DNA of 64,000 nucleotides, from positions 255,501 through 319,500 of the forward strand of contig NZ_CP140153.1 of assembly GCF_034479635.1 (NCBI RefSeq), in the 5' to 3' direction. This stretch comes from Guyparkeria halophila (lineage in GTDB: Bacteria > Pseudomonadota > Gammaproteobacteria > Halothiobacillales > Halothiobacillaceae). The notes under the pieces are model-generated. The model saw only the letters and a program-made list of their open reading frames with translations. It was not told where the DNA came from and ran no database searches. Positions 16,429-20,401 of the stretch are shown here, one piece after another (the first letter of the stretch is position 1; each line of letters opens with the position of its first letter). The translations under genes and the position numbers were made by a program.

Positions 16429-17256
16429 ATGAGCACGCAAGCAAACGCGGCAAATGCGACGGTCGACCTGCACTTCGAGGAGCGTGGCGGCGGCCTGCCG
16501 GTGATCATCATGCACGGGTTGTTCGGGTCGCTCTCCAACTGGCGCGGCATCGCCCAGTCGTTGAGCGCGAACTACCGCGTCATCAATGTCGATCTGCGCA
16601 ACCATGGTCGTTCACCCCACGCCCCGGGGCTTTCCTACGAGGCGATGGCCAACGACATCCTGGCGGTGATGGATCGGCTCGGGGTCGAGCGCGCCCACCT
16701 GATCGGCCACTCGCTGGGCGGCAAGCTCGGCATGGTGCTGGCCGACCGCCACCCCGAGCGGGTCGCCCGGCTGGCCGTGGTCGATATCGCGCCGAAGTGG
16801 TATCCGCCCTGGCACAAGGATGTCTTCGCCGCGCTGGATGCCGTCGATCTCGAGACGCTCGAGTCGCGGGAGCAGGCGCGCCAGCAGATGGCCGCGCACG
16901 TGTTCGAGCCCGAGGTGCGGTCCTTCCTCGCGGCCAACCTCGAGCAGGTCGACGGCCGGTGGCGCTGGCGCTTCAACCTGCCCGAGCTCAAGGCGGCCTA
17001 CGAGCAGACGTCCGACATGCCGACGCTGTCGGGCTTCTATCTCGGGCCGGCCCTGTTCATCCGCGGGGCCCAGTCGGCGTATATCGAGGCGGGCGACGAA
17101 GAGCGCATCGGCCGTGATTTTCCGCAAAGCTGCATCGTCACCCTGGAGCAGGCGCGCCATTGGCCGCACATCGAGGACACCGCCGGGTTCCTTGACGCCG
17201 TCACCCGCTTTTTCGCCCACGGCTGCCACGATTTCCCGGAGCAACCGATCGGTTGA
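16429..17256 (+). CDS. Alpha/beta-fold hydrolase (YbfF-like esterase)
   Basis: This 275-residue hydrolase has the oxyanion/HG motif HGLFGSLSNW near residue 30, VDLRNHGRSPH, the nucleophile elbow GHSLGGKLG (Ser near 90), and a C-terminal HWPHIED with the catalytic His. The LRNHGRS and HSLGGK pattern resembles E. coli YbfF, which hydrolyses short acyl thioesters and esters. The substrate is not known. The gene stands alone between a palindromic element and the large non-coding RNA region; the GacA-type box begins 9 nt after its stop. The start ATG lacks an obvious Shine-Dalgarno, although CAGAG is present. Confidence 0.82.
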   Translation: MSTQANAANATVDLHFEERGGGLPVIIMHGLFGSLSNWRGIAQSLSANYRVINVDLRNHGRSPHAPGLSYEAMANDILAVMDRLGVERAHLIGHSLGGKLGMVLADRHPERVARLAVVDIAPKWYPPWHKDVFAALDAVDLETLESREQARQQMAAHVFEPEVRSFLAANLEQVDGRWRWRFNLPELKAAYEQTSDMPTLSGFYLGPALFIRGAQSAYIEAGDEERIGRDFPQSCIVTLEQARHWPHIEDTAGFLDAVTRFFAHGCHDFPEQPIG

Positions 17257-17264
17257 TCGGCCCG

Positions 17265-17282
17265 TGTAGGAAAATTCCTACA
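17265..17282 (+). promoter_or_regulatory. GacA/LetA/UvrY-type box upstream of the large CsrB-like RNA
   Basis: TGTAGGAAAATTCCTACA is a perfect 18-bp palindrome. It matches the upstream activating sequence bound by the GacA-family response regulators (TGTAAG-N6-CTTACA and variants), which activate CsrB/RsmY/RsmZ-type RNAs. A degenerate second box follows 22 bp downstream: AAAATTCCTAC is repeated exactly at 17293-17303, but its left half is poor. Two helical turns separate the two. No clear -10/-35 is visible between the boxes and the first GGA hairpin. Confidence 0.75.
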
Positions 17283-17349
17283 AAAGAAATCGAAAATTCC
17301 TACGAAACTTTCGGCGATTTCGTCTATCCAGCCGGCGTCAGAGCGCGCA

Positions 17350-17993
17350 TCATGCACCCGTGCTTGGATGCACAGGGCAGGAAGCCCACCCGGCCAGGAG
17401 GCCGAGGGATCGTACGGCGGACAGGGAGTCCGCGCAGGAAGCACCGGCAGAGGATCTGCCAGTTCGGGAGGTCGGGTTCGCCCGACGCGTGCACGGCGCT
17501 TATCTAAGGAAGCGCACCGTAAACAACCGGACCTCGGGACAGAGTCCAGGTTTTTTGCGGGCAGCCAGGAAGGCCGCGGCGCGTTCGGCACGGAAGCCGG
17601 GACCGAATCAAGGATCTAGCCAAGCACCCAGGACGGGTGCTGCCACGGACGGCAAGGGACGATTCCGCGCAGGATGCGCGTTCGATGCAGGATGGCATCG
17701 CTGAAAAAAACGGTGGTAGACGCCGGCAACAACAAGAACCCGCAGGAACGGTCAGCGGCGAGACAAGAATCAACAGGATCGGCAACGGATACTGCCCTTG
17801 TCTTAAGGAAAAGCACTCGCCACACCGGACCCAGGGATTGGGACCCAAGACTCCGCGCAGGGACAACGCGCCGGATCCATGCCGCAGGGCAGGATCGTTT
17901 CCCGGCCAGGAAGGCCCTCCTCCTTTTTCCGTCATCGACGACCCAAGACGACCCAGGACCACCCTCTGAGTGATTCAGATTCGGGTGTTTTTT
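17350..17993 (+). ncRNA. Candidate giant CsrB/RsmZ-type CsrA-sequestering RNA
   Basis: CsrB-type RNAs titrate the translational regulator CsrA/RsmA through many GGA motifs in hairpin loops. This protein-free stretch has about 33 GGA triplets on the plus strand (counted by hand). Many sit in short perfect hairpins: GGGC-aggaa-GCCC (17375-17387), GGCC-agga-GGCC (17392-17403), GCGGAC-aggga-GTCCGC (17417-17433), GGCAG-aggat-CTGCC (17446-17460), GCACCC-aggac-GGGTGC (17624-17640), GCGC-aggat-GCGC (17667-17679), GATGC-aggatg-GCATC (17684-17699) and GGCC-aggaa-GGCC (17904-17916). A GacA-type box lies upstream and an intrinsic terminator at the end. The 5' end is a guess. At about 640 nt it would be larger than E. 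coli CsrB. A T6 run at 17551-17556 after a GGAC/GTCC stem might split it into two RNAs. Confidence 0.82.
17960..17993 (+). terminator. Rho-independent terminator of the CsrB-like RNA
   Basis: CACCC pairs with GGGTG and the adjoining TCTGA pairs with TCAGA around a small loop, with a three-nt bulge. The stem is followed directly by TTTTTT (17988-17993). It terminates plus-strand transcription and separates the RNA gene from queA. The following gap up to 18179 shows no gene. Confidence 0.88.
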
Positions 17994-18179
17994 GCGTGTG
18001 CGTATCCGTTCCCCCGCCGGTCATCCGCCGTGGTGAGTCGCGCCGTGGTTCGTTGGTATCGCCGGCTGCCCTGTGCCCGCTGACAGCCTGCCCGGCGATC
18101 GGTTGGTCGGGCGCGCCGATGGTCGTGCTCGATGTTCCCGGTGGTCTGTCCCCGCGCGGCGGGGTAGACTGCGCCCGCC

Positions 18180-20401
<2,222 letters not shown>

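Follow-up and report, generated by a model that had tools for sequence, protein, structure and literature searches.

An intergenic, GGA-rich element occupies positions 17257 to 17994 of the window, by which we mean the whole stretch of 64,000 nt analysed here from the single-contig genome (2,452,836 bp) of Guyparkeria halophila, with an esterase gene on one side and queA on the other. What does this element specify? The original prediction took it for a giant RNA of the CsrB/RsmZ kind, and those parts of this reading that are testable in the sequence (GGA density and loop placement, an upstream box, conserved position and structure, csrA and gacA) were all recovered. We consider it highly likely that the locus would encode a single-copy small RNA (sRNA) of this kind, activated by GacA and sequestering CsrA. 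The main features of the locus are the following.

16429 to 17256, + strand: esterase gene (alpha/beta-hydrolase, YbfF-type), the conserved 5' flank; best NCBIfam model NF007954, below its cut-off
17265 to 17282, + strand: predicted GacA/UvrY box TGTAGGAAAATTCCTACA, read from the sequence, with symmetric variants in relatives
17291 to 17304, + strand: half-site CGAAAATTCCTACG, like the 3' half of the box; kept in Guyparkeria, degenerate (TCTGACGG) in Halothiobacillus
17325 to 17330, + strand: candidate -10 element TATCCA, proposed from the alignment, with the RNA start near 17337 and without a good -35
17337 to 17993, + strand: proposed CsrA-sequestering sRNA with 33 GGA and predicted ends, the 3' end near 17928 or 17993
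17904 to 17928, + strand: hairpin GGCC-AGGAA-GGCC plus T5, the last GGA hairpin and a possible first terminator; kept in both genera
17960 to 17993, + strand: intrinsic terminator in the predicted fold, imperfect stem CACCC..GGGTG plus T6; stem kept via double changes in relatives
18180 to 19259, + strand: queA, the conserved 3' flank (NF001140, 464 bits), opening the order queA-tgt-yajC-secD-secF

A promoter scan of the region found no sigma-70 consensus site upstream of the GGA-rich RNA. The two candidate 3' ends give a predicted length of about 590–660 nt. The distal terminator, part of the original prediction, is supported by the predicted fold and by double changes that keep its stem, but the stem is imperfect and a simple, strict terminator scan misses it. 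The alternative end is formed by the GGA-loop hairpin at 17904–17916 followed by T5, the counterpart of which is the final conserved hairpin in Halothiobacillus.

GGA motifs and their placement in hairpin loops

The established recognition element of CsrA is a GGA presented in a short hairpin loop (AGGA, ANGGA) (PMC7652899). The forward strand of 17340–17994 holds 33 GGA motifs, the number originally estimated, versus 9 on the reverse strand; for 17257–17994 the counts are 34 and 12, one of the 34 lying inside the box. This is the highest GGA density on either strand of the window, where the runner-up 655-nt stretch has 21 and the background averages 8.8 per 655 nt (sd 4.0). Dinucleotide shuffles of the region yield 19 ± 3 motifs with a maximum of 29.

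Placement of the motifs is equally far from random expectation. Perfect local hairpins of at least 4 bp carry 16 GGAs in their loops, and those of at least 5 bp carry 11, which matches the minimum previously read by eye and exceeds both dinucleotide shuffles (mean 2.4, maximum 6) and shuffles that preserve the GGA positions (mean 3.4, maximum 8); at 6 bp or more, 7 loop GGAs remain versus a mean of 0.9 and a maximum of 5. When structures of the whole RNA were drawn by Boltzmann sampling, 13 GGAs had a probability above 0.5 of lying in a hairpin loop (30 shuffles: mean 0.9, maximum 3), the loop enrichment over shuffled sequence that had been proposed as a check. Among trinucleotides occurring at least 10 times, GGA has the highest hairpin-loop probability, and the fold of the RNA is more stable than that of shuffles (z = -3.1). 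In the isolated fold, base pairing is predicted for about half of the GGAs, a result that counts against a CsrA sponge and places the number of usable CsrA sites between about 13 and 33. Besides the possible first terminator, the hairpins with GGA loops include the following.

17361 to 17374, + strand: hairpin 1, GTGC-TTGGAT-GCAC, GGA in the loop, near the RNA 5' end; C-G/U-A covariation in 17 distinct sequences of two genera
17375 to 17387, + strand: hairpin 2, GGGC-AGGAA-GCCC; outer pair G-C replaced by C-G in relatives
17391 to 17404, + strand: hairpin CGGCC-AGGA-GGCCG, from hairpin scan and alignment
17417 to 17433, + strand: hairpin GCGGAC-AGGGA-GTCCGC, from hairpin scan and alignment
17446 to 17460, + strand: hairpin GGCAGA-GGA-TCTGCC, from hairpin scan and alignment
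17623 to 17641, + strand: hairpin AGCACCC-AGGAC-GGGTGCT, with the strongest covariation (double changes at 3 pairs)
17666 to 17680, + strand: hairpin CGCGCA-GGA-TGCGCG, merged in loci L010 and L012 with the next one
17683 to 17700, + strand: hairpin CGATGC-AGGATG-GCATCG, from hairpin scan and alignment

Conserved position, upstream box and CsrA

The hydrolase gene is followed by queA in 20 genomes (our own included) from Guyparkeria and the Halothiobacillus group, the latter denoting genus g4, the second of the Halothiobacillaceae, and labelled on the basis of family membership. A box and a GGA-hairpin RNA lie between the two genes in all 20, with 19–33 GGA per locus. Hairpins with GGA in the loop exceed every shuffle in 19 of these loci and lie above the mean but within the shuffle range in the remaining one (L016), and the GGA count by itself is above the highest shuffle value in each of the ten Guyparkeria loci and in half of those from the Halothiobacillus group. 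A 21st genome, from a different genus, has a box, a GGA cluster and a strong terminator beside another neighbour gene (L024). The box-plus-GGA cluster was not found in five genomes of genus g3 (G012, G014, G016, G018 and G020), in which a hydrolase homologue is present and queA does not adjoin it.

Immediately preceding queA in the same orientation, and in constant order across the 20 genomes, the element might not be a free sRNA but belong to queA as a long 5' leader, an attenuator or an untranslated region under CsrA control. We judge this improbable, since one or two terminators precede queA by 190–250 nt, the spacer between terminator and queA is poorly conserved, and a conserved block that abuts the start of queA and contains a -10-like TAGACT resembles a promoter of queA's own. 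Moreover, the RNA has a different neighbour in L024, and a leader would not require so much repetition of GGA.

The box upstream of the RNA reads TGTAGGAA-AA-TTCCTACA and precedes the first GGA by about 85 nt. It was originally described as a perfect 18-bp TGTAGG-N6-CCTACA palindrome, which holds for its 6-bp arms and slightly overstates the whole, as the 18-mer has palindromic arms of 8 bases each, separated by a central AA that does not pair. A second, degenerate box had been proposed shortly downstream; a box-like sequence does occur there, at 17291–17304, but it amounts to a half-site only. The main box is identical to the letter in 10 of 10 Guyparkeria loci, whereas the boxes of the Halothiobacillus group vary, partly symmetrically, and that of L022 (TGTAAGAAAATTCTTACA) has the canonical form TGTAAG-N6-CTTACA, the published UvrY/GacA consensus being TGTAAGN6CTTACA (PMC3171408). 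The exact TGTAGGN6CCTACA occurs twice in the 2.45-Mb genome, and in genomes G015 and G021 the copy at this locus is the sole GTAGGN6CCTAC. The second exact site in our genome (C1:2389580; around 1501–1518 of L003) lies upstream of a ComEA-like gene near the rRNA genes, has no GGA cluster, and is possibly a second GacA target or a chance occurrence. Two more GacA-type boxes without a GGA cluster were seen in G011, from another genus of the family (L120, G011:C79:72018; L121, G011:C111:209), and these are possible other GacA targets.

The original prediction had also asked for csrA and gacA/S elsewhere in the genome, and the first two were located. There is one csrA, in a lysC/alaS neighbourhood, the product of which can be aligned from one end to the other, over 58 residues, with E. 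coli CsrA (1y00) and keeps the RNA-binding residues L4 and R44. An orthologue of GacA/UvrY is encoded directly upstream of uvrC; its best NCBIfam model is NF007018 (192 bits, the next 133), a score that misses the equivalog cut-off of 280 and was counted against the sponge reading.

Since GGA is also Shine-Dalgarno-like, the transcript might instead be a structured, GGA-rich RNA with a protein other than CsrA as its partner, or one that works via base pairing. This appears very improbable: GGA in short loops is the CsrA recognition element (PMC7652899), a GacA-type box precedes the RNA, and the genome encodes a canonical CsrA for which a pattern search found no other GGA-rich antagonist there. 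Candidates for a second Csr RNA were rejected, as neither the other exact box, nor four boxes with one mismatch, nor the first 30 AGGA-triplet sites of the pattern search, this locus apart, had a comparable GGA cluster. The Csr RNA is apparently present in single copy in this genome.

As an antagonist of CsrA, the locus would work as follows. Phosphorylated GacA (UvrY) would bind the box at 17265–17282 and turn on a weak promoter, and the RNA would begin near 17337, stop near 17928 or 17993, and accumulate. CsrA dimers would then be bound by its 32–33 GGA motifs, of which hairpin loops present at least 13, and with CsrA taken off, target mRNAs would be released. The box and what is established about the Gac/Csr pathway underlie the early steps of this scheme, and motif placement underlies the later ones. 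By soaking up the global regulator CsrA, the sRNA would very probably serve as a master switch for gene expression.

Covariation and turnover of the hairpins

Within the genus, ten sequences with 72–98% identity to the window were aligned. A structure of 20 local hairpins is paired in 96.8% of the cells of this alignment, compared to 32–38% in slid controls, a figure that is favoured by the derivation of the structure from a consensus fold of the same ten sequences. The double changes are stronger evidence for a conserved structure: nine pairs changed on both sides, in 19 such cells, where shuffles give 4.1 and 5.3 and none of 500 reached as high. Hairpins 1 and 2 also covary across two genera, with the signal in two of eight pairs. 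Conservation in all ten genus members extends to 55% of the GGA sites versus a trinucleotide median of 20%, with GGC and GCC higher.

The absence of coding potential, as originally claimed, agrees with the alignment, in which 93 of 100 indels relative to the nine other members of the genus have a length not divisible by three, thereby excluding a conserved reading frame. The least probable explanation, suggested by several open reading frames of up to about 150 aa that cross the region, is coding sequence in decay or a composition due to chance; it is refuted by the alignment, as indels break the frame even between the closest relatives, GGA count and loop placement are out of the shuffles' reach, and conservation and covariation span two genera.

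The hairpins of the proposed CsrA antagonist also differ between relatives. L010 and L012 have one hairpin in place of two adjacent ones, which together with a tandem array in another relative suggests that hairpins are gained and lost as modules. In this array, at about 270–350 of the intergenic region of L014 (G013), a CCAGGGATGA-type unit of some 20 nt occurs five times in succession, and GGA sites appear to be growing by tandem duplication.

The original prediction had named a covariance search without a hit as evidence against itself, and this is what was found: no Rfam model matched the window or 18 related loci at its gathering threshold, relaxed thresholds gave nothing usable, and the best CsrB (RF00018) score of 14 bits, with gathering at 71, was counted against a CsrA sponge. 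Given the conservation and covariation in the alignment of relatives, the negative result indicates only that a model for this clade is absent from Rfam, and the predicted RNA is an uncatalogued one of the CsrB/RsmZ type, outside RF00018 by score. A covariance model built from the two 5' hairpins has one match in our own genome and, among 321 genomes of the class, strong matches only in Guyparkeria. Its weaker matches outside the genus were rejected as chance, those inspected having neither GGA cluster nor box.

Known Csr RNAs and the GacS-locus protein

The RsmX, RsmY and RsmZ RNAs of Pseudomonas and RsmY and RsmZ of Legionella share with the Guyparkeria RNA a GacA (LetA) box, GGA hairpins and, as proposed here, the titration of RsmA/CsrA. 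They are several-fold shorter, have few GGAs and are present in at least two copies, and the Rfam models of this clan remain below threshold on the Guyparkeria RNA. CsrB, known from E. coli and V. cholerae, is likewise a long intergenic sRNA with many loop GGAs, a terminator, a UvrY/VarA-type box upstream and a role as CsrA antagonist; sequence homology is, however, undetectable at the score given above, the gene neighbourhood differs, and the Guyparkeria RNA is apparently single-copy. As anticipated, the latter is the larger one, with 33 GGA in about 590–660 nt versus 22 GGA in E. coli CsrB (PMC7652899). V. cholerae CsrB has 28 GGA, 11 of them in loops (PMC6550530), so that "giant" is a question of degree. 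The lineage-specific intergenic Csr sRNAs Pf1, Pf2 and Pf3 of Pseudoalteromonas fuliginea were likewise identified through a promoter, a terminator and the number of GGAs; there are three per genome, with 25, 21 and 9 GGA, and their transcription and function have been shown experimentally (PMC11882849), whereas the Guyparkeria RNA is predicted from sequence. The 33 GGA of the Guyparkeria RNA exceed the count of every published Csr RNA found in the open-access literature, the next being the 28 of V. cholerae CsrB.

Literature on Halothiobacillus or Guyparkeria in connection with CsrA or GacA contained no account of such an RNA, which would provide a family of sulfur-oxidising bacteria with a probable Csr antagonist new to Rfam and to the literature searched. 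Its high GGA number offers a test of sponge capacity against motif number, and hairpin gain, fusion and tandem duplication between close relatives make the RNA family suitable for studying the evolution of sponges.

The third trans factor sought, GacS, is represented by a hybrid sensor encoded beside cysM (L052:942-3329; G000:C1:1915441-1917825; orthologues L095–L113), a gene that adjoins gacS in Pseudomonas as well. It matches GacS through its position and through its receiver and HPt portion, for which BarA is the best match at 92 bits. The phospho-accepting His of the H-box is lost in all 19 aligned orthologues from Guyparkeria and the Halothiobacillus group (NQ[QH]W[VI]TPL versus SHE-RTPL in kinases), and in the three members scanned neither HATPase_c nor HisKA was found, with receiver and HPt retained. 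A GacS/BarA protein with an intact kinase core was not recovered at this locus, which was counted against the sponge reading. With the kinase core lost and receiver and HPt kept, the input of the circuit is probably unlike that of a textbook GacS.

Chemotaxis proteins aside, the cysM-linked sensor is also the sole protein of the genome in which an HPt was found. LadS of P. aeruginosa signals via the HPt of GacS alone (PMC4866733), a precedent that makes a bridging role plausible, and the protein may serve as a phosphorelay bridge for another kinase. We tentatively suggest, at somewhat less than even chances, that a single giant CsrA sponge might be the sole or nearly sole direct target of GacA in both Guyparkeria and Halothiobacillus, with a kinase-dead GacS acting as a receiver-HPt bridge for other kinases; the Csr switch of these sulfur-oxidising autotrophs would then be a rewired one. 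The kinase-less GacS-locus protein is the most unusual observation of this analysis, and it poses a testable question as to the signal that drives the Csr switch.
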